Source: Bacillus sp. 491mf (lineage in GTDB: Bacteria > Bacillota > Bacilli > Bacillales > Bacillaceae_G). From it: DNA of 48,162 nucleotides. The DNA is taken from the NCBI RefSeq assembly GCF_900112415.1, contig NZ_FOLV01000028.1, positions 1 through 48,162 of the forward strand. Direction: 5' to 3'. Under the pieces are notes generated by a model. It searched no databases, had not been told where the DNA came from, and worked only from the letters and a program-made list of their open reading frames with translations. Shown piece after piece: positions 3,599-19,313 of this stretch (positions are counted from its first letter, which is position 1; every line of letters begins with the position of its first letter). The position numbers and the translations under genes were made by a program.

Positions 3599-4456
3599 AT
3601 GAAAAAGTTACTTGGTATAGCAACAGCAGCAGTTTTTGGTCTTGGGATTTTCACTTCTTCTGCACAGGCAGAAACAGTTGTTACAACAGACGTACTAAAC
3701 GTACGAGAAAACCCAACTATTGAATCAAAAGTTGTAGGAAAAGTACTAAATGGTAATAAATTAGATGTTAAAAATACAGAAAACGGTTGGCTAAAAGTGA
3801 ACCTAAATGGTAAAGAAGGATTCGTAAGCGCAGAATTTACGAAAAACATCTATTATGTAACAGCAAACGTATTAAACGTACGTGCTGATGCAAACACAAA
3901 CTCAGAAATTTTGGGTACATTAAAGAAAGATGATGTGATCGAAACAACACATCAAGTTCAAAACGAATGGTTACAATTTGAATATAACGGAAAAACAGCT
4001 TATGTAAATGTTCCTTACTTAACAGGTAATGCACCTGTCGTAACAGCACAAGAACAAGCACCTGCTCCAGCAAAAGCCGGGTCGGCTCAACCAGCTCAAG
4101 CCCAAAAAACGCAGGCTGCTACAGAAACAAAAGCTGCTCCAGCTAATGGCCGTGAATTAACAGTTGTTGCAACTGCTTACACAGCTAACCCAAGCGAAAA
4201 TGGCGGCACACATGGCGGTCGTGTATTAACTGCAATGGGTCATGACCTAACAGCAAATCCAAATATGAAAATGGTTGCTGTTGATCCGAAAGTAATTCCA
4301 CTTGGATCAAAAATTTGGGTAGAAGGATACGGCGAAGCAGTTGCTGGTGATACTGGCGGTGCAATTAAAGGAAATCGTATCGACGTCCTAGTAGGCTCTG
4401 ACAGCGCTGCAAACAAATGGGGACGTAAAACTGTAAAAGTGAAAATTTTAAACTAA
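3599..4456 (+). CDS. Secreted SH3b + 3D-domain cell-wall protein (YocH/YuiC-like)
   Basis: The start ATG at 3599 has GGAGG six bases upstream and begins a clear signal peptide (MKKLLGIATAAVFGLGIF..., cleavage after AQA), so a reading from 3512 is rejected. The product is 285 aa: two SH3b domains (about residues 25-85 and 88-145), an Ala/Pro/Gln linker, then a C-terminal 3D domain with its conserved aspartates in VAVDPKVIPLGSK, GDTGG and KGNRIDV. 3D domains share the fold of MltA/RlpA lytic transglycosylases, so a role in peptidoglycan turnover is likely (family knowledge). It is a single-gene unit with its own promoter and terminator. Confidence 0.9.
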   Translation: MKKLLGIATAAVFGLGIFTSSAQAETVVTTDVLNVRENPTIESKVVGKVLNGNKLDVKNTENGWLKVNLNGKEGFVSAEFTKNIYYVTANVLNVRADANTNSEILGTLKKDDVIETTHQVQNEWLQFEYNGKTAYVNVPYLTGNAPVVTAQEQAPAPAKAGSAQPAQAQKTQAATETKAAPANGRELTVVATAYTANPSENGGTHGGRVLTAMGHDLTANPNMKMVAVDPKVIPLGSKIWVEGYGEAVAGDTGGAIKGNRIDVLVGSDSAANKWGRKTVKVKILN

Positions 4457-4478
4457 TTACTATTGTTGCTAAAAAGGC

Positions 4479-4520
4479 GAGCCAGCTCTCATCAGTTGAG
4501 AGCTGGCTCTTATTTTATTT
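4479..4520 (+). terminator. Intrinsic terminator of the 3D-domain gene
   Basis: GAGCCAGCTCTC and GAGAGCTGGCTC pair perfectly around ATCAGTT, followed by a T-rich tail. Confidence 0.93.
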
Positions 4521-4545
4521 ATAATAGAAAAAAGGAGGAATTCAT

Positions 4546-4860
4546 ATGAATATAAACGCAAACGTTGACTGGATTGGTACACCAACTCCATATATATATA
4601 AAGATGCCGTTACATACGATGCAACTGCCATTGATTTTTCATTAGAACATGATGATAACCGCTATAGACTCATCATTTTACAGCGCGGCGAAGACGTAGA
4701 ATACAAAATCATACAATATGGCGTCAAGCCTGGTAACCAAAAGCCATTTCCAATCGATACTGGCTACCACTTCAAAAATAAAACGATTCCTTTAATCGAA
4801 ATGATTTTACAAGATCCTTATGTACAAAGCATATTGCAACAAAAGACTACCTCTTCTTAA
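4546..4860 (+). CDS. Conserved-looking hypothetical protein, 104 aa
   Basis: The start has a strong AAAGGAGG site eight bases upstream. The product is a soluble, acidic to neutral 104-residue protein, MNINANVDWIGTPTPY at the N-terminus, with alternating hydrophobic residues (RYRLIILQRGEDVEYKIIQY) that suggest a beta-rich fold; no signal or membrane helix. I do not recognise a family. It is a single gene: the 3D-domain terminator precedes it and its own terminator overlaps its stop codon. Confidence 0.8.
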   Translation: MNINANVDWIGTPTPYIYKDAVTYDATAIDFSLEHDDNRYRLIILQRGEDVEYKIIQYGVKPGNQKPFPIDTGYHFKNKTIPLIEMILQDPYVQSILQQKTTSS

Positions 4861-4894: not shown

Positions 4895-4984
4895 AAATTA
4901 GGAGATAACTGCCCATAAGAGCCTAGTTCATTTAACTACTCCCCACCGTGGGAAATGAACAAAACACCCACTGAGGGAAGTTTC
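4895..4984 (+). repeat. Degenerate bcr1-like repeat (partial copy)
   Basis: GGAGATAACTGCCCATAAGAG and the following CCTAGTTCATTTAACTAC align with GGGATAACTGCCCGTAAAAG and CCCGATTGGTTCAACTAAC of the element at 48051-48162. The rest (4925-4960) folds as GTTCATTT...AAATGAAC. The left half of the element is missing here. It lies in the promoter region of ywqB. Confidence 0.65.
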
Positions 4985-5029
4985 ACCTTATAATAGAAAA
5001 GAAGGAAATCTTTTGCGCGGAGGAACATT

Positions 5030-6649
5030 ATGCTGCAACATTCAATTACGAAAGATGAAATTATGGAAATTGCCAATGAGTTTTTGAAAGGACTCGACCC
5101 ACAGCAAGCGGCTGACAAAGAACAAGTATCAAATGCACTTCAGCTCTATCGTAGTGGCCTCGTGTATAACGTTGATTTCGATGGATATACATTATCAGGA
5201 ACAGTCGAACATGACGGGGATATTTATAGTGTAAATATTCCGATTCGAAATGTGTCCGAAAGTTATTGTGATTGTTTTTCACCAACGCAATGTGAGCATA
5301 TGTTCGCCGTATTACTATATGCAGCTTCAAGCTTTGGGCAAGTGGGAGACATTCTAACTTTATTTAAGAAAAAAACGAGGCCGGTGCTCCCGCCTATTCG
5401 CACAGCGCGGCAAATGCTGCAAATGAACGATTTTACGGATACAAATTATGAAAGCTGGCTTCCGTACTTTGAATCTGAGTACGATACATTTGTTAAAGAA
5501 CACGCACGTCTTTCATACAAACAAATGTATTTTCTGATGAACATTTTCACGGAGTTCTATATGAAACTGGAACGAAAAGCACCGCGGATTGTTGCAGTTC
5601 ACGAATTATTTAAACTGAGTGCAGCACTCTTTACTTTTCAGAAGCTACTGAAAGAGATTGAAACATTTGAAGCAGATAAAATCTATTCTTATCATCAACA
5701 AATCAATATTGTACAACTCTTTGTGAATAAAATAGAGAGTATTGTACAAGATTTGAAAGCTGAACCATTTCAAGATGCACTCCAGCCATTTCTGCACCAC
5801 ATCGCTGAAATGCTGCATACAATATTCTTCTCTGCCCCTTCTTATACACAGGAGCGATTTTTTATTTATCGCCACCTATGGGGAGAGCTGTTCGTAGAAC
5901 CGGATTGGATACTGGAAGAACAAAAACGGATTGAAACAAAAATACATCCATTATCAAAAGCACTTGCATCCGCTCATCTTCTCTTTCTACAGCGAAAAGA
6001 TAAAGAGGCAATGGATGTACTAAGAGCACAGCCACCACAAGTTGTTGGCCTTTACTTTGATTGGCTTGAAGATTTATTAAGTTCCATGCAGTGGGAGCGG
6101 GCAAAAGGATGGCTGTCCTTCACTTACAAGCGAGTGAAAGAAACGATAACGACCGAGCACGATCCTTACTTTGTGAAAGATGTTGTCCGTTTATTTATGA
6201 TGATGTATGAAACATATGCAACGCATACGAATGAACAAGCTGGCTATGAGATGATTCTTCAAGAATTATTACCATATAGCTTCACCAGCTATGAGCAATA
6301 TGTACTCGCTAAAAGACAATATCACACATGGACAGAACTCCATTTACTATATGGATTTGAATCCATTGAATTGTTAAAAGAAGTATTAAAAGAAGTTGAA
6401 AAAGAAGCGCCGGAAGCTGCTCTTCCGCTCTATCATTATGCTGCAATGCAAGCGATTGAAGAAAAGAATCGCAAATCGTACCGCAGAGCTGTTCGCTACT
6501 TAAAAAAACTAAGAACACTATATAAAAAGCTCAAACGGGTAGATGAATGGGAGTCTTTCATTATGATTATTGCTTCCTCTCACTCACGACTGCGAGCTTT
6601 ACAAGAAGAACTGCGGAAAGGGAAGTTGATCCATGACAACATTAATTGA
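5030..6649 (+). CDS. ywqB: SWIM zinc-finger protein (YwqB-like)
   Basis: 539 residues. The SWIM motif CxC...CxH is visible at C80, C82, C88 and H90 (YCDCFSPTQCEHM). The remainder is helical and Leu/Tyr rich, without other known motifs. In B. subtilis ywqB lies directly before the SNF2 helicase gene ywqA; here the same order holds with a 17-base overlap, which implies co-translation and a joint function. Family knowledge: SWIM domains bind DNA or proteins and often accompany SNF2 or MULE proteins. The actual role of the pair is not established. Start: ATG with GCGGAGG six bases upstream; a TATAAT at 4989 may be the -10, sitting at the edge of the bcr1-like repeat. Confidence 0.85.
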   Translation: MLQHSITKDEIMEIANEFLKGLDPQQAADKEQVSNALQLYRSGLVYNVDFDGYTLSGTVEHDGDIYSVNIPIRNVSESYCDCFSPTQCEHMFAVLLYAASSFGQVGDILTLFKKKTRPVLPPIRTARQMLQMNDFTDTNYESWLPYFESEYDTFVKEHARLSYKQMYFLMNIFTEFYMKLERKAPRIVAVHELFKLSAALFTFQKLLKEIETFEADKIYSYHQQINIVQLFVNKIESIVQDLKAEPFQDALQPFLHHIAEMLHTIFFSAPSYTQERFFIYRHLWGELFVEPDWILEEQKRIETKIHPLSKALASAHLLFLQRKDKEAMDVLRAQPPQVVGLYFDWLEDLLSSMQWERAKGWLSFTYKRVKETITTEHDPYFVKDVVRLFMMMYETYATHTNEQAGYEMILQELLPYSFTSYEQYVLAKRQYHTWTELHLLYGFESIELLKEVLKEVEKEAPEAALPLYHYAAMQAIEEKNRKSYRRAVRYLKKLRTLYKKLKRVDEWESFIMIIASSHSRLRALQEELRKGKLIHDNIN

Positions 6650-9389
6650 CATTATCATTCGGCTCGAACGAATGAACCAAAACTGGTTTCTTTGGGCAGA
6701 GGATGAAACAGGGAACAGTTTGCCTGTAAGCAGTTGGAAACAACATGCGTTCACATGGCACTCCTCTTCTTTCTATGGAACACTTTTGCAAGAAGGAACA
6801 TATGAACAGCGGAGCGGTATCATTTTAAACGCTACTCAAGCATTTGAATATATCGCGAAAAAACCGGTAAATTCATTTACGAACTTACAAACAAGTGCAG
6901 CCATTAGCGAACTCGCGCCAATGGCCGAAAAAATGTGGGAGGCTTACAGGGTAGGAGACTTCATTCCAGATATAAAGCAATGGCATCAATATCCTTCCTG
7001 GAAAACCGCTCATGAAGAAATAGTAGATGAAACGGTGCAAGCCCTGTTTTCAGATGCAATTAATGAAACGCTTCGCCATCAGACTCGTTCTGGCACAGCA
7101 TGGGAAGATGCACAGCGCTTATATGAGCATTATGACTTTACGATAAGACAGCTTGAAACAGCCATTCATGAAGACGATTGGCTACGTAAAATTGGCTATA
7201 TCGAAGACGATCTACCATTTACAGTTGGACTTCGTCTTCAAGAACCGGAGAATGATTTTGAAACGTGGCAGCTTGAAACCATATTAACACCAAAGCGCGG
7301 CACTCAACGAATATACGTATATACCGATTCTGAATCATTGCCGAAACGATGGTTGAAATATGAAGAACGTATTACGGAAACGCAAGATGGTTTCGGCAAA
7401 CTCGTACCTTGGTTAATGGAAGACGATCTATTTCGAAGTGAATTACACGAAACGGAAGCATGGCGCTTTTTAACAGAAGCCAGCAATGAATTGCTAGCAG
7501 CTGGTATTGATATTTTACTACCATCATGGTGGCAAAATTTAAAAGCCAATAAACCAAAGCTGCGCATCCAAGTGAAACATAATGCAAAGGCAGGGCAAGC
7601 ATTCTTTGGCATGAATACGCTCGTAGATTTTAACTGGCGTATTTCTACAAACGGCATCAATTTATCAGAGGCCGAATTTCTCGCGCTCATCGAACAAAAC
7701 AGACGTCTCATTCATATAAACGGACAATGGATGAGGCTTGACCCTGCCTTTATCGAAGAAGTGAAGAAACTGATGAAGAAAGCAGACAAATACGGCCTTG
7801 AAATGAAAGACGTTGTGCAGCAGCGATTACTTCGCGGAGCAGAAACAGAAGTAGTTGAAGAAGAAAGTCCATTTGCAGATATGGAAATCGAACTCGATGA
7901 TTATTATGATAAGTTATTCGACAGATTGCTGCACATTGGAGAGATTCCATCTATACAAATACCAGCTTCCTTGCAAGCAACATTAAGACCATACCAACAG
8001 CAAGGAGTTGAGTGGCTCCTCTATTTACGAGAGCTTGGATTTGGTGCGTTATTAGCCGATGATATGGGACTTGGAAAAAGCATCCAGACAATTACTTACT
8101 TACTCTATATAAAAGAACACAACCTAAAAACAGGACCCGCACTTATTGTGGCGCCTACATCTGTTCTCGGTAACTGGCAAAAAGAGTTCGAGCGCTTTGC
8201 ACCGAGCTTACAAGTGAAACTCCATTACGGCGGCAACCGGGCCAAGGGAGAAGATTTGTCCACTTTTATGCAAGATGCCGATGTAATTTTGACATCCTAT
8301 GCACTCACACAGCTTGATGAAGAAGAGCTCGGCTCACAGCGCTGGGATGCAATTATTCTCGACGAGGCGCAAAATATAAAGAATCCGCATACGAAACAAT
8401 CGCGTGCTGTTCGAAAGTTGCAAGCAAATCATAAAATCGCTTTAACAGGAACACCGATGGAAAACCGTTTATCAGAATTATGGTCGATCTTTGACTTTCT
8501 GAACCATGGCTATCTTGGTAGTTTACCGCAGTTTCAGCGCCGTTTCGTAACGCCGATTGAAAAGGACCGCGATGAAACAAAGATTCAGCAAGTGCAGCGC
8601 TTAATCGCACCGTTCTTACTGCGCCGCACGAAACAAGATAAATCAGTTGCCTTGAACTTACCAGATAAACAAGAGCAAAAAGCATATTGTCCGTTAACGG
8701 CGGAACAAGCATCGCTTTATGAACAACTCGTTCAAGATACGTTAAAGAATGTGGAAGGATTAACAGGCATTGAGCGCCGCGGTTTTATTTTGCTCATGTT
8801 AAATAAACTAAAACAAATTTGTAACCATCCTGCTCTCTATTTAAAAGAAGATGCGCCAACAAACTTAGCCAATCGTTCTATGAAAATAGAAACATTATTA
8901 GAACTCGTTGAAAACATACGGGATCAGCATGAAAGCTGCCTCATTTTCACGCAGTATATTCGAATGGGAAATATGCTGAAAACATTGCTTGAAGAACATT
9001 TTGGAGAGCGCGTCATCTTCTTGAACGGAAGTGTACCGAAGAAAGAGCGCGATAAAATGATCGAACAGTTCCAAAGCGGACAACATGGCATCTTCCTGCT
9101 CTCTTTAAAAGCGGGCGGAACAGGACTAAACTTAACCGCAGCCAACCATGTGATTCATTACGATCGCTGGTGGAACCCTGCCGTTGAAAACCAAGCGACA
9201 GACCGCGCTTATCGCATCGGTCAAAAACGATTTGTCCATGTGCATAAACTCATTACAACAGGAACACTTGAAGAAAAAATTGATGAAATGCTCGAGCGAA
9301 AACAATCGCTCAATAATGCGATTATCACTAGTGAAAACTGGATTACAGAACTATCCACAAACGAACTGAAAGAACTATTAGGAGTATAG
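6633..9389 (+). CDS. ywqA: SNF2/Rad54-family DNA-dependent ATPase (YwqA-like)
   Basis: 918 residues. The N-terminal half (about 1-440) is the bacterial SNF2-associated region; the C-terminal half is a superfamily 2 motor. Seen: motif I DDMGLGKS (K482), motif II DEAQ (D577-Q580), motif III LTGTPMENRLSELWS, and motif VI QATDRAYRIGQ (854-864). The length and the RIGQ-type motif VI fit bacterial SNF2 translocases, which move on double-stranded DNA rather than unwind it. It overlaps ywqB and ends at a bidirectional terminator. No nuclease domain is present. A role in DNA repair or remodelling is inference. Confidence 0.93.
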   Translation: MTTLIDIIIRLERMNQNWFLWAEDETGNSLPVSSWKQHAFTWHSSSFYGTLLQEGTYEQRSGIILNATQAFEYIAKKPVNSFTNLQTSAAISELAPMAEKMWEAYRVGDFIPDIKQWHQYPSWKTAHEEIVDETVQALFSDAINETLRHQTRSGTAWEDAQRLYEHYDFTIRQLETAIHEDDWLRKIGYIEDDLPFTVGLRLQEPENDFETWQLETILTPKRGTQRIYVYTDSESLPKRWLKYEERITETQDGFGKLVPWLMEDDLFRSELHETEAWRFLTEASNELLAAGIDILLPSWWQNLKANKPKLRIQVKHNAKAGQAFFGMNTLVDFNWRISTNGINLSEAEFLALIEQNRRLIHINGQWMRLDPAFIEEVKKLMKKADKYGLEMKDVVQQRLLRGAETEVVEEESPFADMEIELDDYYDKLFDRLLHIGEIPSIQIPASLQATLRPYQQQGVEWLLYLRELGFGALLADDMGLGKSIQTITYLLYIKEHNLKTGPALIVAPTSVLGNWQKEFERFAPSLQVKLHYGGNRAKGEDLSTFMQDADVILTSYALTQLDEEELGSQRWDAIILDEAQNIKNPHTKQSRAVRKLQANHKIALTGTPMENRLSELWSIFDFLNHGYLGSLPQFQRRFVTPIEKDRDETKIQQVQRLIAPFLLRRTKQDKSVALNLPDKQEQKAYCPLTAEQASLYEQLVQDTLKNVEGLTGIERRGFILLMLNKLKQICNHPALYLKEDAPTNLANRSMKIETLLELVENIRDQHESCLIFTQYIRMGNMLKTLLEEHFGERVIFLNGSVPKKERDKMIEQFQSGQHGIFLLSLKAGGTGLNLTAANHVIHYDRWWNPAVENQATDRAYRIGQKRFVHVHKLITTGTLEEKIDEMLERKQSLNNAIITSENWITELSTNELKELLGV

Positions 9390-11174: not shown

Positions 11175-11678
11175 TTGACTGACTTAGTTGATTGGTATGA
11201 AATTTCCGCGCAAACGATGGCACTTGAGGCGTACGCTCATCCTGTTTATCAAACAAAAATTTGGGAAACGCAAAGAATCATCTTTTCAGTGAAAACACCG
11301 CTGCAACTCATTCGTGAAAGTTGCATTATGCGAAACTACTCGACTTATGAAGGAAAACGATTAGCCATTCAAGAATGTTGCCACTTTAAACAAAACGTCC
11401 CAATCCCTATTGATCATCAACACTTCATGTGCGCCATTCCTACAAAATCACCTTCATCTTGGCCATGCTCCTGGATATTTTATGCTTACATCGAAAGACT
11501 GGAACGTCACGATTCTCGCCACACAAACATCTATTTTCGTAATGGTAAAAATCAAATCTTCCCTATTAGTCCCAATCAAATGGAGAATCAATGGATAAAA
11601 GCTGGTCACATTTTAGCTAAACTCAATCTTCTAGATAAAATGAAACTACCAGTAGATCATTCTTTTCCTCCTCTTTGA
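11175..11678 (+). CDS. comK: ComK-family competence regulator (paralogue with shortened C-terminus)
   Basis: 167 residues, TTG start at 11175 with AGGAGG eight bases upstream; no ATG in a sensible place. The central part aligns by eye with B. subtilis ComK: KTPLQLIRESC, YSTYEGKRLAIQE, PSSWPCSWIFYAYIE, IYFRNGKNQIFPISPNQMENQW. ComK (192 aa in B. subtilis) activates DNA-uptake genes by binding paired AT boxes. Here the protein stops about 25-30 residues earlier, losing the C-terminal helix-rich tail that follows the DHRVP-like segment. B. cereus carries two comK paralogues; by chromosomal context this looks like the comK2 type (inference). Convergent with a sigma factor gene. Confidence 0.85.
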   Translation: MTDLVDWYEISAQTMALEAYAHPVYQTKIWETQRIIFSVKTPLQLIRESCIMRNYSTYEGKRLAIQECCHFKQNVPIPIDHQHFMCAIPTKSPSSWPCSWIFYAYIERLERHDSRHTNIYFRNGKNQIFPISPNQMENQWIKAGHILAKLNLLDKMKLPVDHSFPPL

Positions 11679-14560: not shown

Positions 14561-15237
14561 ACAGCACACCTTCTATCTTCTGTAATTTTCCCATCTCTGA
14601 GCACAATGCGGCGAGATGAATACGCTGCTACTTCCTCTTCATGCGTAACCATTACAATCGTTGTACCTTCTTTGTTTAGCTGGGTGAAAATATTCATAAC
14701 TTGTTCACCCGATTTTGTATCAAGCGCACCGGTTGGTTCATCGGCCATAATGAATGTTGGATCATTCGCAATCGCACGTGCAATTGCCACACGCTGCTTT
14801 TGTCCACCTGATAATTCATTTGGCAAGTGATGGACGCGATCTGCCAATCCAACCTTCCCTAATGCCTCTAATGCCCGCTCGCGGCGCTCCGCTTTCTTTA
14901 TACCACCGTAAATAAGCGGGAGCTCTACATTCTCCACCGCCGAAAGACGGGGCAGCAAGTTAAAGTGCTGGAACACAAAACCGATATATTCATTTCGAAT
15001 AAGCGCCAATTTTGACTCATCTGCTGTTAAAACATTCACATCATTCAGCGTATATTCGCCTTCTGTTGGACGATCGAGACAACCGATAATATTCATAAGC
15101 GTTGATTTCCCCGATCCAGATGGTCCCATAATCGAAACAAATTCACCGCTATCAATTCTTAAACTAATACCATGTAAAATTGGTACAGCTAAACTTCCTT
15201 GATAATATGTTTTATGAATATTGTTTAAGGTAATCAT
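14557..15237 (-). CDS. yknY: MacB-type ABC transporter ATPase (YknY-like)
   Basis: 226 residues. Walker A GPSGSGKST at 38-46, Q-loop FVFQH near 88-91, ABC signature LSGGQKQR at 142-149, Walker B IMADEPT at 163-169, switch His in VTHEEE near 198-200. The start ATG overlaps the yknX stop by four bases and its own stop overlaps yknZ, so the three genes are tightly coupled. Family: LolD/MacB-type ATPases. Confidence 0.95.
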   Translation of the reverse strand: MITLNNIHKTYYQGSLAVPILHGISLRIDSGEFVSIMGPSGSGKSTLMNIIGCLDRPTEGEYTLNDVNVLTADESKLALIRNEYIGFVFQHFNLLPRLSAVENVELPLIYGGIKKAERRERALEALGKVGLADRVHHLPNELSGGQKQRVAIARAIANDPTFIMADEPTGALDTKSGEQVMNIFTQLNKEGTTIVMVTHEEEVAAYSSRRIVLRDGKITEDRRCAV

Positions 15238-16421
15238 TTTTTCTTCACTTCCATTCCGTTAAACACTTTATCGGAAGGATTTTCAACCACCTTTTGTCCT
15301 ACTGTTACGCCTTCAACTACTTCAGCCCAATCTCCATCACTTGAACCTTTTTTCACAATTTGTTTGCGAAGCTTTCCTTTATCCTCTACATACACAAATG
15401 ATTCTTCTTTTTCTGTTACAATACTTTTACTAGGAACAGCAACCATTTTCTTATTTTCTAAGTTTACTTGAATAGACACATGATAACCTGGTGATAATCC
15501 ATCTTGGGAATCTAATGATGCTTTATATGTATAATAAGACATATTTTGGTTTGCTTCTCCGCCTGCTGAAGCTTGTGTAGTTACTTCTGCACTTGTCGGA
15601 TATTCGCTTACCTCAGTAATTTTTCCAGTCCACTTCTTCTTTGGCGCTGCCTTTGCCGTCACTGTAATTGTTTGATCTTTTTGGATTTGTGATTTTTGTA
15701 GTTCAGTTAATGTACCTTGAATTTGGAATGCATCCTTAGAAGCGATTTGCAAAAATGATTTCCCTTGTCCACCCAATGCTGACGTAGAACCTTGCGAAGC
15801 ATCTTTATCAAGCTTTTGTACAACACCGGCAAAATTACTATAAACCGTAAGTTCACCTTGTTTTTTCTTTAATTCTTCTATATGAAGATTCACTTTTTCT
15901 TTTTCAAGATCAGATGTTTTTTGTTGCAATTCTAATTCATTTAATTGCGATTCTAACGGCTCGATTGCCTCTTTCGTCGCCCCGCTATCCTTCGCTTTCT
16001 TAATATCTTGTTTCAATGAATCTATTTTTTTCTTTCCTTGATCAAAGCGCATAGAAGCCACTTTTTGTTCTATTTCTGCTTGCTTCACTTGCAAATTAGT
16101 TTCTTCATTATCATAAGAGAACAGCTTGTCCCCTTTCTTCACTTCTTGCCCTTCTTTTACAGCAATATCTTTTACTTTTCCTTTAGTTGCATCCGTATAG
16201 AAACTCTCAATATTCCCTGGTTTTACTTGGCCAGAAATGAGTTTTGTATTATTAAGCTGACGCTCTGTTACTTCTGTAAACTTTACATCTGCTGTAGTCC
16301 CTTTTTTCTTACCCTGCATAATAAAAATATTAACAGCAGCAACGATAATAATAAGTGCAATAACTCCAATGATGATCCACTTTTTCTTTTTATTCGGAGT
16401 ACGAACCGTATTTGGTAACAT
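15234..16421 (-). CDS. yknX: Membrane-fusion (adaptor) protein (YknX-like)
   Basis: 395 residues. N-terminal Lys-rich stretch and a single membrane helix (WIIIGVIALIIIVAAVNIFI, about 15-34); then a lipoyl-like domain (KDIAVKEGQEVKKGDKLFSY), a coiled-coil hairpin (about 105-190, many Lys/Glu), the second lipoyl half (GELTVYSNFAGVVQKL), and beta-barrel/membrane-proximal domains. This is the RND/MacA-type adaptor layout. It is the first gene of yknXYZ; AAAGGAGAG precedes the ATG. Promoter and a WalR-like box are visible upstream. Confidence 0.92.
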   Translation of the reverse strand: MLPNTVRTPNKKKKWIIIGVIALIIIVAAVNIFIMQGKKKGTTADVKFTEVTERQLNNTKLISGQVKPGNIESFYTDATKGKVKDIAVKEGQEVKKGDKLFSYDNEETNLQVKQAEIEQKVASMRFDQGKKKIDSLKQDIKKAKDSGATKEAIEPLESQLNELELQQKTSDLEKEKVNLHIEELKKKQGELTVYSNFAGVVQKLDKDASQGSTSALGGQGKSFLQIASKDAFQIQGTLTELQKSQIQKDQTITVTAKAAPKKKWTGKITEVSEYPTSAEVTTQASAGGEANQNMSYYTYKASLDSQDGLSPGYHVSIQVNLENKKMVAVPSKSIVTEKEESFVYVEDKGKLRKQIVKKGSSDGDWAEVVEGVTVGQKVVENPSDKVFNGMEVKKK

Positions 16422-16459: not shown

Positions 16460-16488
16460 ATTATACAAACTTTTCCAAAATATCTCAA
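16460..16488 (-). promoter_or_regulatory. Sigma-A promoter of yknXYZ
   Basis: On the minus strand TTGAGA (16483-16488) and TATAAT (16460-16465) are separated by exactly 17 bases, about 40 bases before the yknX start. I saw no sigma-W type TGAAAC/CGTA pair here. Confidence 0.75.
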
Positions 16489-16604: not shown

Positions 16605-16624
16605 TTAAACAAACGTTTGATTAA
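16605..16624. promoter_or_regulatory. Palindromic operator-like site, copy 1
   Basis: TTAAACAAACGTTTGATTAA, a near-palindrome with core CAAACGTTTG and outer TTAA arms. It is identical base for base to the site at 16855-16874. This copy lies after the 46-aa ORF and 184 bases before yknX. The form fits a TetR-type dimer site; no TetR gene is in the window. Confidence 0.65.
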
Positions 16625-16697
16625 CAGCTCAAAATAACCGTTAATTGTTGACTGTATTGAGTTTAAAATCTCTCAGGCGCCACTTTTAAAAATCCTC

Positions 16698-16838
16698 TTA
16701 TAAATCTACATCTGTGGAATTATTTGAAGTAGGTAAATCTTTCGGTACCCCCAGTCTAATTTCATATATATTCTCACCTGTTACAACAATTGCCGTACAA
16801 CGATAAGTTCTTTCCACTTCAGTCGTAAACATTTGCAT
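16698..16838 (-). CDS. Unannotated 46-aa ORF between two identical palindromes
   Basis: ATG at 16838, then MQMFTTEVERTYRCTAIVVT and so on to DVDL, TAA at 16698-16700. The composition is protein-like: alternating strands (RCTAIVVTGENIYEIRLGVP) and a polar tail with NNSTDVDL. The upstream GGTTGAGATG is a modest ribosome binding site. A 20-bp palindrome lies 17 bases upstream of the ATG and a second identical one lies 74 bases past the stop. I recognise no family; it has the look of a small soluble beta protein. Confidence 0.55.
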   Translation of the reverse strand: MQMFTTEVERTYRCTAIVVTGENIYEIRLGVPKDLPTSNNSTDVDL

Positions 16839-16854
16839 ATCAACATCTCAACCT

Positions 16855-16874
16855 TTAAACAAACGTTTGATTAA
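16855..16874. promoter_or_regulatory. Palindromic operator-like site, copy 2
   Basis: Identical to the 20-mer at 16605-16624, exactly 250 bases apart. It sits between the pgtP terminator and the 46-aa ORF, where it could control a promoter for that ORF. Confidence 0.65.
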
Positions 16875-16905
16875 AAAAAGAGAATCTATCAATTGATAGA
16901 TTCTC
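16873..16905 (-). terminator. Terminator of the organophosphate-uptake operon
   Basis: GAGAATCTATC and GATAGATTCTC pair around AATT; the minus strand continues into seven T, which run into palindrome copy 2. Confidence 0.9.
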
Positions 16906-16918
16906 CTCTTCAAAATGA

Positions 16919-18259
16919 TTAAGCAGTTTGCTTCTTAGACGCTTTTCTCTCATGACCAAATTGAACGATGAATAAGAATACAGTAGATAAAATACCACCT
17001 GCTATTAATAGAATGAAACAACCATCCCAACCAGAGCGATCAACGATAACACCAATCGCTGCGTTGGCAACTAGGCTTCCGCCTAAATAACCGAACAAGC
17101 CGCACATACCTACTGTTGTACCAATTGCGAATTTTGGTACTAATTCCATTGCACTTAAACCAATTAAAAATTGTGGTACGTAGATTAAGCAACCAATAAT
17201 CGAAACTGCCGCACTTACAACAAGTATGTTAGATGCTTGCCAGTATACGAACGTTCCAATAACAACACCAACCATACTAAACACACATAGTGACATACGT
17301 TTCCCTTTGAATAACTTATCACTTAACAAACCAACGATTAATGAACTTGGAATTGCCATAACTTCAAAGATTGAGAACGCTGCATGTGCTTCTGCTTTTG
17401 TAAATCCTTTAACTGTTGTTAAATAAATTGGTACCCAGTTAATTACACCGAAACGAATTAAATATACAAATGCGTTCGCAATACATAAATACCAAACAAA
17501 TTTATTTTTCACTACATATTTCATTAAAATTTCTCTTGGTGACATTTTGCCCGCATTGTCTGCCTTCTCAAGATCTTCATAGTCATTACGATATTCATCA
17601 ATTGGTGGAAGACCGACAGATTCTGGTGTATCCTTCGCATTGATCCACATAAGAATTGAAATGACCATTGCAATAATCGCCGGGAAGATGAACACGCCAG
17701 CTTGCCAATGACTTTCACCGAAAATACCAACACCAATTCCAACAACCGGTGGTACAAGCATCGCGCCGATATTATGTGAAATATTCCAAAGTCCTGTTTT
17801 CGTACCGCGTTCTTTCTTCGAGAACCACTTTGCCATTACAGTACTACAAGGCGGAGCCCCCATACCTTGGAAAACATTATTTAATACTAATAATGTTAAA
17901 ATCATGCCAAATGAAGATGCAAAACCAAAACAAATATTTATAATTGCAGATAAAAATAACCCAACCGCTATAAAGCGCTGAGCATACGCTTTATCTGATA
18001 AATTCCCCATAAAGAACTTACTTAGTCCATATACAATCGCCACAACGGAACCTAGTAAACCAATATCCGTTGTAGTAAAACCATATTCTTTCATTAAGTA
18101 CGTACTAGATAACGTAAAGTTACTACGAACTAAATAATACGCTGCATACCCGACCGAGATTCCAAGTAATACACGAAGACGTAGTAGTTTGTATAATTTG
18201 TCGATCATATTCGCTGGCAAACGCTCGATTGCTGGTGCAGGTTTAAGCCAATTAAACAT
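16919..18259 (-). CDS. pgtP: Organophosphate:phosphate antiporter, phosphoglycerate-type (PgtP-like)
   Basis: 446 residues. The start at 18259 (MFNWLKPAPAIERLP) has AAGGAGAAGAG upstream and follows the binding-protein stop by 19 bases; the longer frame would overlap that gene and is rejected. About 12 helices, with the GlpT/UhpT signature region YLVRSNFTLSS, the loop GNLSDKAYAQRFIAVGL, KWFSKKERGTKTGLWNISHN and a second-half LSDKLFKGKRM loop. This is the OPA family of the MFS, which swaps sugar-phosphates, glycerol-3-phosphate or phosphoglycerates for phosphate. The operon context with a kinase, regulator and binding protein suggests the PgtP type; the actual substrate is inferred. Confidence 0.85.
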   Translation of the reverse strand: MFNWLKPAPAIERLPANMIDKLYKLLRLRVLLGISVGYAAYYLVRSNFTLSSTYLMKEYGFTTTDIGLLGSVVAIVYGLSKFFMGNLSDKAYAQRFIAVGLFLSAIINICFGFASSFGMILTLLVLNNVFQGMGAPPCSTVMAKWFSKKERGTKTGLWNISHNIGAMLVPPVVGIGVGIFGESHWQAGVFIFPAIIAMVISILMWINAKDTPESVGLPPIDEYRNDYEDLEKADNAGKMSPREILMKYVVKNKFVWYLCIANAFVYLIRFGVINWVPIYLTTVKGFTKAEAHAAFSIFEVMAIPSSLIVGLLSDKLFKGKRMSLCVFSMVGVVIGTFVYWQASNILVVSAAVSIIGCLIYVPQFLIGLSAMELVPKFAIGTTVGMCGLFGYLGGSLVANAAIGVIVDRSGWDGCFILLIAGGILSTVFLFIVQFGHERKASKKQTA

Positions 18260-18278
18260 ATTATCTCTTCTCCTTTTT

Positions 18279-19313
18279 TCACTTTTGAGAGAGACGTTGT
18301 CTATTCCATAACTCGATGATTCCACTATCTGATACTGATTGATTCGTTCTTCCAACTGGCTGACCTTGCACTTCTTGCTGACGCTTTGCAAGCATCGTTG
18401 GTACGCCAAACGAAACTTTTTCTAAAATATGCCCCGCTTCTTCTGATAAACAATAATCAATAAATAAATCCGCTATAATACCACTCGGTGCATGTTGTAT
18501 TTTAGAAATCGCATTAACAGATAAACCTGTTTGCTTCGGTACCTTACTTACAATTGGAAAGCCTTGCTTTTGCAGCATACGCTGGTCTCCGATGAAATTA
18601 ATGCCGATAATCGATTCGCCACTCGCAACATATTCCGCAGGCATATAACCATTAACCGTTACCTTTGCAACTTGTTTGGCAAGCCCCACCGCAAATTTGT
18701 TTGCTTCTTCTTCTCCAAACGTATCTATTAATGATTGAAACAACGTATACGCTGTTCCTGATACATTCGGATCAGGTATGACAATCTTTCCAGCATAAGC
18801 AGGATGTAATAAATCTTTCCATTCCGTGGGATACGAAAGTCCAAGCGGTTCTATTTCCTGTTTCCATCGCTCCTTATTAATAGCAATCGCCAGCTGCTCT
18901 ACTTCATAACCATACCAATAGCCATCTTTATCTTTTACGGCTTTTGAAATGTTATTAGCATGCTGACTTGTTACAGGAATCGAAATGTCCTTTCGCTTCA
19001 TCATCTGATGAGCATCTAATGTGCCCCCAATAATAACATCTGCTTTTGGGTTATCAGCTTCCGCTTCTACTCTTCTTAACATTTCCTCTGTAGAAAGACG
19101 AATAAATTCATACGTACATCCGCGCGCCCTGCAAAAAGACGATAACAATGCCTCGCCTACCTCTTCACGCGCTGCAACATAAGCAACGAGATGACGATCT
19201 TTTAAAATCGGAAGACCGCCTTCATCATATTTAATAGTGGTTGTATCTCGAGAGCAACTAGACATCGCTCCTCCTATTACTAGCAAAAAGAAGAAAAAGG
19301 CTATCTTTTTCAT
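18279..19313 (-). CDS. Extracellular solute-binding lipoprotein (PgtC-like sensor component)
   Basis: 344 residues. Signal with Cys at about 20 (GGAMSSCSRD); the lipobox is atypical (M-S-S-C) but position and length fit. The mature part is a periplasmic-binding fold of the Fe3+/polyamine type (LVAYVAAREEVGEALLSSF, DVIIGGTLDAHQMM, AYAGKIVIPDPNVSGTAYTL). No ABC permease is near, so it probably presents ligand to the histidine kinase, as PgtC or HptA do in known organophosphate systems (inference). It overlaps the upstream gene by four bases. Confidence 0.83.
   Translation of the reverse strand: MKKIAFFFFLLVIGGAMSSCSRDTTTIKYDEGGLPILKDRHLVAYVAAREEVGEALLSSFCRARGCTYEFIRLSTEEMLRRVEAEADNPKADVIIGGTLDAHQMMKRKDISIPVTSQHANNISKAVKDKDGYWYGYEVEQLAIAINKERWKQEIEPLGLSYPTEWKDLLHPAYAGKIVIPDPNVSGTAYTLFQSLIDTFGEEEANKFAVGLAKQVAKVTVNGYMPAEYVASGESIIGINFIGDQRMLQKQGFPIVSKVPKQTGLSVNAISKIQHAPSGIIADLFIDYCLSEEAGHILEKVSFGVPTMLAKRQQEVQGQPVGRTNQSVSDSGIIELWNRQRLSQK

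Follow-up and report, generated by a model that had tools for sequence, protein, structure and literature searches.

In Bacillus subtilis, five nearly palindromic motifs (RefZ-binding motifs, RBMs) are recognised by RefZ, a sporulation protein of the TetR family; two of them are on each chromosome arm and one is near oriC, and the position of these motifs relative to oriC is conserved across Bacillus, as described in the consulted parts of PMC6657595. According to the same parts of that paper, the RBMs of the arms delimit the DNA that the forespore captures, the RBMs of B. subtilis are needed for this capture to be precise, and the structure of RefZ is available as PDB 6MJ1 (PMC6657595).

A pair of palindromes that very probably belongs to this class of motif was analysed in a stretch of 48,162 nucleotides of Bacillus sp. 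491mf (contig NZ_FOLV01000028.1), which as a whole is called the window hereafter. The features of the window on which the analysis is based are the following.

5030 to 9389, + strand: ywqB/ywqA-like gene pair (ORFs 5030-6649 and 6633-9389, the second a SNF2 helicase); in B. tequilensis, relatives of the pair lie about 2.2 kb away from an RBM
15234 to 16421, - strand: flanking gene for a HlyD-type membrane-fusion protein (yknX-like); profile match
16460 to 16488, - strand: best sigma-A-like promoter of the intergenic region, before the HlyD/yknX-like gene; a consensus match only, at 11 of 12 positions
16605 to 16624, no strand: very probable RBM copy 1, the 20-bp near-palindrome TTAAACAAACGTTTGATTAA; exact match, with family evidence
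16698 to 16838, - strand: 46-codon frame between the two very probable RBMs, with gene-like codon usage
16855 to 16874, no strand: very probable RBM copy 2, with the same 20 letters as copy 1 at a distance of 250 bp, abutting the T-run of the hairpin
16874 to 16911, - strand: terminator-like hairpin behind the phosphate-ester transporter gene, with a fold of -20.9 kcal/mol and a z of -5.9
16919 to 18361, - strand: flanking gene for an MFS transporter of the GlpT/PgtP/UhpT type; profile match

The gene names ywqA, ywqB, gtaB, tagF, yknXYZ and yaaO are assignments that we presume to hold for the genes concerned; FabZ, TagU, MreB/Mbl, SpoIIID, SNF2 and thymidylate kinase were named by protein family or profile searches.

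As the preliminary description of this DNA had reported, two identical 20-bp near-palindromes are present in the window at a distance of 250 bp, with both copies of TTAAACAAACGTTTGATTAA on the + strand, and a search allowing up to three mismatches revealed no further copy in the window. Each copy differs from its own reverse complement at two positions. Counted on both strands, the pair amounts to four matches, compared to 0.01 expected in shuffled sequences, and it is more than chance. When the sequences beyond the edges of the 20-mers were compared by eye, no convincing similarity was seen between copy 1 and copy 2, which makes a recent duplication of a longer segment unlikely.

The pair is located within a 497-bp intergenic gap. 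Copy 1 is 117 bp away from the best promoter match and does not overlap it, and a consensus scan of the intergenic region detected six sigma-A-like sites vs. 3.7 expected, none of them between copy 2 and the 46-codon frame. The consensus terminator scan of the same region reported no terminator, perhaps missing the hairpin because its T-run pairs into the stem, and a search for RNA elements there produced only four matches, far below the gathering scores of their families. Elsewhere in the window, a gene for a ComK family protein (competence regulator) is found at 11175-11678 on the + strand, 5 kb from the pair. Close relatives of the window seem to be absent from the sample of 397 Bacillales genomes used here, none of which had a close DNA match at E 1e-20, and the DUF3919 protein of the window was found in one of the 397, at 32%. 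A family search in 19 genomes gave matches in 12 of them at E 0.001, and the matches listed were stretches of 22-58 bp located at the palindromes.

The 46-codon frame between the two copies had been called protein-like in composition, and its codon usage bears this out. The codon score of the frame was 0.185, compared to a mean of 0.195 for 240 windows taken from genes, 47% of which scored no higher; the frame exceeded all 91 shadow ORFs, and its score was reached by only 1 of 3,434 ORFs in simulated intergenic DNA. The length of the frame is unremarkable, with 72% of the simulated gaps holding an ORF of at least 45 codons. No protein family matched the 46-aa sequence and no match to it was detected in plasmid records, and the four matches obtained in the 397 Bacillales genomes, at E 0.04-0.1 and three of them with in-frame stops, were judged to be chance. 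The frame may represent a genuine small gene specific to the lineage, or else a remnant, and nothing ties it to the palindromes.

Both sites of the window are exact matches to the motif TTAAWCAAACGTTTGWTTAA, and they share this sequence class with five sites of B. tequilensis, detected at up to one mismatch. An exact scan of genome contigs with TTAAWCAAACGTTTGWTTAA gave a sample of at least 119 stretches, the majority bearing titles of Bacillaceae; 12 stretches with the motif were also found in viral contigs. Among the matches listed, 111 of 124 sites were intergenic as judged with a crude ORF caller. The 116 sites listed from outside Bacteroidota were placed between tandem genes in 52 cases, convergent genes in 25 and divergent genes in 17, with 13 further sites inside ORFs and 9 at locus edges, and the 94 intergenic sites with both neighbours in these listed matches showed no preference as to neighbours. 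The neighbouring genes were diverse, related species often shared a locus, and no common neighbour or target gene was seen in Bacillaceae, all among the matches listed. The counts of neighbours and of spacings omit the eight Bacteroidota loci, and the spacings use 111 of the 119 loci. When the motif was searched for at up to one mismatch in 27 genomes, all of which had been chosen as holders of the motif (the scan started from 30 loci, and L037 was left out), every genome had between 2 and 37 sites, and the reversed control had none. Across 199 genomes sampled evenly from the order, 155 had the motif at the same threshold, compared to a single genome for the reversed control.

The presence of RefZ in these genomes was called with the profile NF037937 over its cut-off. 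Of the 27 motif genomes, 26 had RefZ by this criterion and one, a Dyadobacter, did not, and RefZ was detected in 176 of the 199 genomes of the order sample. In the latter, the motif was found in 153 of the 176 genomes with RefZ vs. 2 of the 23 without it (Fisher p 3e-14, uncorrected for relatedness), the RefZ-negative status of three of these 23 (G191, G194 and G205) being deduced by elimination; 23 of the 176 RefZ genomes had no motif at up to one mismatch. Two genomes with no RefZ match at E 1e-45 nevertheless carried copies of the motif, three in G194, negative by elimination as mentioned, and one in G099. In B. tequilensis, a close relative of B. subtilis, the five sites equal the number published for B. 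subtilis.

The position of the sites relative to dnaA was then compared in eight genomes of other species, out of 15 in which dnaA was sought; in these eight, the sites and dnaA were on one large contig, which was treated as a closed circle. In total, 49 of the 52 sites were located 214-737 kb from dnaA, no site was found within 200 kb of it, and in seven of the eight genomes the sites were present on both chromosome arms, flanking the origin. After merging sites within 20 kb of each other, the origin-proximal 35% of the chromosome held 38 of 41 (binomial p 1e-14). The exceptions were G408, whose two sites lie on the same side of dnaA, 1.06 and 1.24 Mb away from it, and G390, with one site at 2.47 Mb. 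Left out of these statistics were G002, G161, G051, G093 and G105, which were fragmented, G149, in which no dnaA was found, and G410, also fragmented, with sites on its contig C1 at approximately -704, -522 and +1479 kb from dnaA and three more on another contig. Exact parS was found in five of the seven genomes searched, and lay between the two bands of sites in four of these five (G402, G409, G406 and G390); in G408 an exact parS was near dnaA and the motif sites were one-sided, and no exact copy was found in G407 and G410. In B. tequilensis, two sites are 44 kb apart on one contig, two others are 22 kb apart on another and the fifth is on a third contig, beside a thymidylate kinase gene. 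Going by the gene order of B. subtilis, the fifth site is presumably near the origin and the other contigs can be assigned to the arms.

On the basis of the origin-flanking position of the motif family, its co-occurrence with RefZ and the count of five in B. tequilensis, the palindromes of the window are very probably RBMs, doubled at one intergenic spot. This assignment is made from sequence comparison, and the palindromes are likened to the published RBMs by description rather than by letters. The TetR-type dimer site proposed in the preliminary description was thus a sound suggestion, as the palindrome fits the sites of a TetR-family protein, RefZ. We infer that the organism has RefZ, that RefZ binds at the pair and that the two copies give stronger or cooperative binding. 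A doubled RBM represents a known kind of element in a new place.

For the placement of the window on the chromosome, 45 stretches around most of the RBMs of nine genomes were compared, without a null model, with the ORFs of the window, and in five of the nine genomes an RBM was found within 10 kb of relatives of window genes, as follows.

B. tequilensis (L169): YwqA-like, 52%
G409 (L207): GtaB-like, 76%; RBM 719 kb from dnaA
G402 (L205): GtaB-like, 72%, and TagF-like protein, 40%; RBM 489 kb from dnaA
G406 (L221): FabZ, 81%, Mbl, 80%, and a SpoIIID match, 90% over 88 aa; RBM 302 kb from dnaA
G407 (L217): YknY-like, 56%, and YknZ-like, 39%; RBM about 340 kb from dnaA

Once the orientation of dnaA was allowed for, the RBMs of G409, G402, G406 and G407 that are near relatives of window genes were all on the same arm, the left one. 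Matches at 39-41% to an ABC ATPase (L215), response regulators (L216 and L202) and TagU (L202) are probably to paralogues and were not counted. As the RBMs concerned share one arm in four genomes, the window is probably a left-arm RBM neighbourhood, the exact neighbours of the RBMs differing between species.

A more local reading of the pair had been put forward in the preliminary description as a small unit under its own repressor. On a reading of this kind, a TetR regulator would use the sites as its two operator boxes and so control the 46-aa gene, or else the transporter operons. The end of copy 2 is indeed 16 bp upstream of the start codon of a frame with gene-like codon usage, and in Bacteroidota the palindrome is located just upstream of a TetR_N gene (Pfam) in all eight loci found among the matches listed (L043, L056, L064, L067, L083, L093, L100 and L114), which means that the palindrome is not exclusive to RefZ and suggests a shared or convergent operator recognition; in Dyadobacter G417, the one Bacteroidota palindrome genome searched, no RefZ was detected above the cut-off. 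However, no TetR family was detected with Pfam among the 41 ORFs of the window of at least 100 aa, in line with the earlier statement that the regulator must be encoded elsewhere and in contrast to what an autoregulated TetR operator would require, and no sigma-A-like promoter was found between copy 2 and the frame. Operators should also avoid convergent gaps, and the sites of Bacillaceae, in the matches listed, do not, being found there as often as in divergent ones and without a common target. Instead, the same palindrome is single, paired or arrayed at many loci, and tracks the distance to the origin and the presence of RefZ. The other reading offered for the 250-bp stretch, a small mobile unit with terminal repeats, or the relic of one, has in its favour that two identical repeats bound it, but the palindrome occurs alone, paired or arrayed in other species, with spacers that by eye are mostly unrelated, the flanks beyond the 20-mers differ and no DNA match was found in 72,556 plasmid records. 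The combination that had been named beforehand as speaking against a local unit, random positions without shared gene neighbours, was found in its second half only, as neighbours are not shared but the positions are not random, with the sites flanking the origin. Because the sites have no common neighbour and follow the origin, both readings were rejected, the local operators being extremely unlikely and the mobile unit having a practically negligible probability.

It could also be argued that the motif belongs to another origin-flanking protein, be it RacA, Noc or an unknown one, and that RefZ co-occurs with it just because both are shared by sporulating Bacillaceae. The co-occurrence is confounded by phylogeny, and the RefZ genomes without the motif, together with an identification by published description, would be compatible with such a protein. 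Against it, B. tequilensis agrees with the published RBMs in the number of its sites, five, and, going by gene order, in their arrangement, and the occurrence of a near-palindrome next to TetR genes in Bacteroidota is in keeping with a reader of the TetR type. The sites of RacA and Noc are palindromes different from the motif. We consider a protein other than RefZ very improbable as the reader of the motif, and RefZ is retained as the preferred one. HlyIIR of B. cereus was considered as a binder and set aside; the consulted parts of PMC1828608 contain no letters of its operator.

Doubling of RBMs is also found outside the window, in other genera. Among the matches listed, a second copy at up to three mismatches was present within 400 bp at 20 of 111 loci, and 9 of the 27 adjacent spacings were 55-58 bp. 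Six of these nine belong to Rossellomorea and [Bacillus] enclensis, with L001 and L041 at the same gene, and the remainder to Heyndrickxia, Cytobacillus and Bacillus sp. V3B; therefore, part of the excess at 55-58 bp is a consequence of relatedness among loci. The 250 bp of the window is outside this spacing class. Longer arrays were observed as well. In L167 (G051:C5:145500-149500), eleven RBM-like palindromes are repeated with a 55-56-bp period at 1810-2388, separated by pyrimidine-rich spacers that are more diverged than the 20-mers, and in L168 (G093:C21:30500-34000) six RBM-like copies are found at 112-113 bp from each other at 1498-2078, each unit apparently with a degenerate copy near its middle, as judged by eye. 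Degenerate RBM arrays are present in Lederbergia panacisoli, in L021 at 4378-4691 with a spacing of about 42 bp and in L052 at 4912-5286 with mixed spacings. A CRISPR-like nature of such arrays was considered and dropped, the spacers of L167 and L168 being diverged tandem repeats.

RBM-like sites were also detected in phages. Fifteen phi29-type genomes, 13 of them from phages with Bacillales hosts, were picked from 115 records with a related polymerase and scanned at up to three mismatches, revealing RBM-like sites in nine of the 15 and none in the reversed control. The sites are located as follows.

WhyPhy (L181), 258-618: five RBM-like sites
PumA2 (L182), 255-685: six RBM-like sites, with a 57-bp pair
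PumA1 (L187), 274-640: four RBM-like sites, with a 57-bp pair
phi29 (L190), 1133-1152: one RBM-like site
B103 (L189), 973-992: one RBM-like site
Goe1 (L188), 960-979: one RBM-like site
Goe6 (L191), 952-971: one RBM-like site
Goe18 (L198), 946-965: one RBM-like site
Chedec 11 (L196), 16827-16846: one RBM-like site

In WhyPhy, PumA1 and PumA2, all of the sites are within 700 bp of the left end of genomes of 18.5-18.9 kb; these three phages are B. pumilus Bundooraviruses and close relatives of each other, with 97% identical polymerases. The single sites of phi29, B103, Goe1, Goe6, Goe18 and Chedec 11 have 1-2 mismatches and run across the end of the DNA polymerase gene; as these phages are related and the positions equivalent, the six are not independent. 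No RBM-like site was found in Bfsp1, Sarmo, SRT01hs, SYYB1 and the Enterococcus and Arthrobacter phages among the 15 scanned.

A broader and more speculative idea, which we put forward as an outside chance, is that RBMs are multivalent platforms, often doubled or arrayed outside B. subtilis and preferably repeated every 55-58 bp, which would hold several RefZ dimers in a defined assembly, the pair of the window being one such platform, and that phi29-type phages would use the RefZ of the host for entry into the spore or for sensing sporulation. In particular, a role of the phage sites in spore entry is a guess. No report of RBM arrays or of phage RBMs was found in the literature searched, which did not cover the two main RBM papers. 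The interest lies above all in the clusters and in the sites carried by phages.

Regarding the probable working of the pair, Bacillus uses RefZ during sporulation to gauge how much of the chromosome is caught in the future spore. The places of the RBMs lie near the future polar septum in the stretched chromosome, and the complexes of RefZ with the RBMs probably tune FtsZ in such a way that the forespore captures a fixed part of the chromosome. In the window, the intergenic spot probably holds the pair because it is harmless there, behind the hairpin and clear of the best promoter match, and the pair is probably not there for regulating the neighbouring genes. An unexplained repeat pair would then turn into a readable landmark, with which the chromosome probably signals the distance to its origin to the division machinery of sporulation. 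A search by sequence can locate RBM-like sites in many Bacillaceae, often in clusters, and in some phages. The clusters of defined spacing and the phage sites could help to test the action of RefZ on FtsZ, which is still open according to the consulted parts of PMC6657595.

Compared with other known systems, the presumed TetR operators of Bacteroidota belong to the same class of 20-bp palindrome as the window sites and are presumably read by a similar TetR reading head, but, unlike the sites of the window, they adjoin a TetR_N gene on its upstream side, as an autoregulated operator would. The Noc sites and parS of Bacillus resemble RBMs in placing a DNA-binding protein of division or segregation on the chromosome; parS has a sequence other than that of the motif and lies between the motif bands. 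According to the consulted parts of PMC6657595, the Noc sites are distributed along the whole chromosome apart from a gap at ter, in contrast to the two bands of the motif. The SlmA-binding sites of gammaproteobacteria are, like RBMs, bound by a TetR-family protein that acts on FtsZ, but dozens of them are distributed over the chromosome except for ter, according to the same parts of PMC6657595, whereas the motif sites described here are few and form two bands beside the origin. With respect to B. subtilis itself, the consulted parts of PMC6657595 describe five motifs per chromosome, including a fifth RBM near oriC, whereas the window holds two identical copies 250 bp apart and none of the sites of the eight mapped genomes is near oriC. 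Shared with the RBMs of B. subtilis are the near-palindromic site itself and, as seen in the other genomes, the flanking of oriC on both arms.
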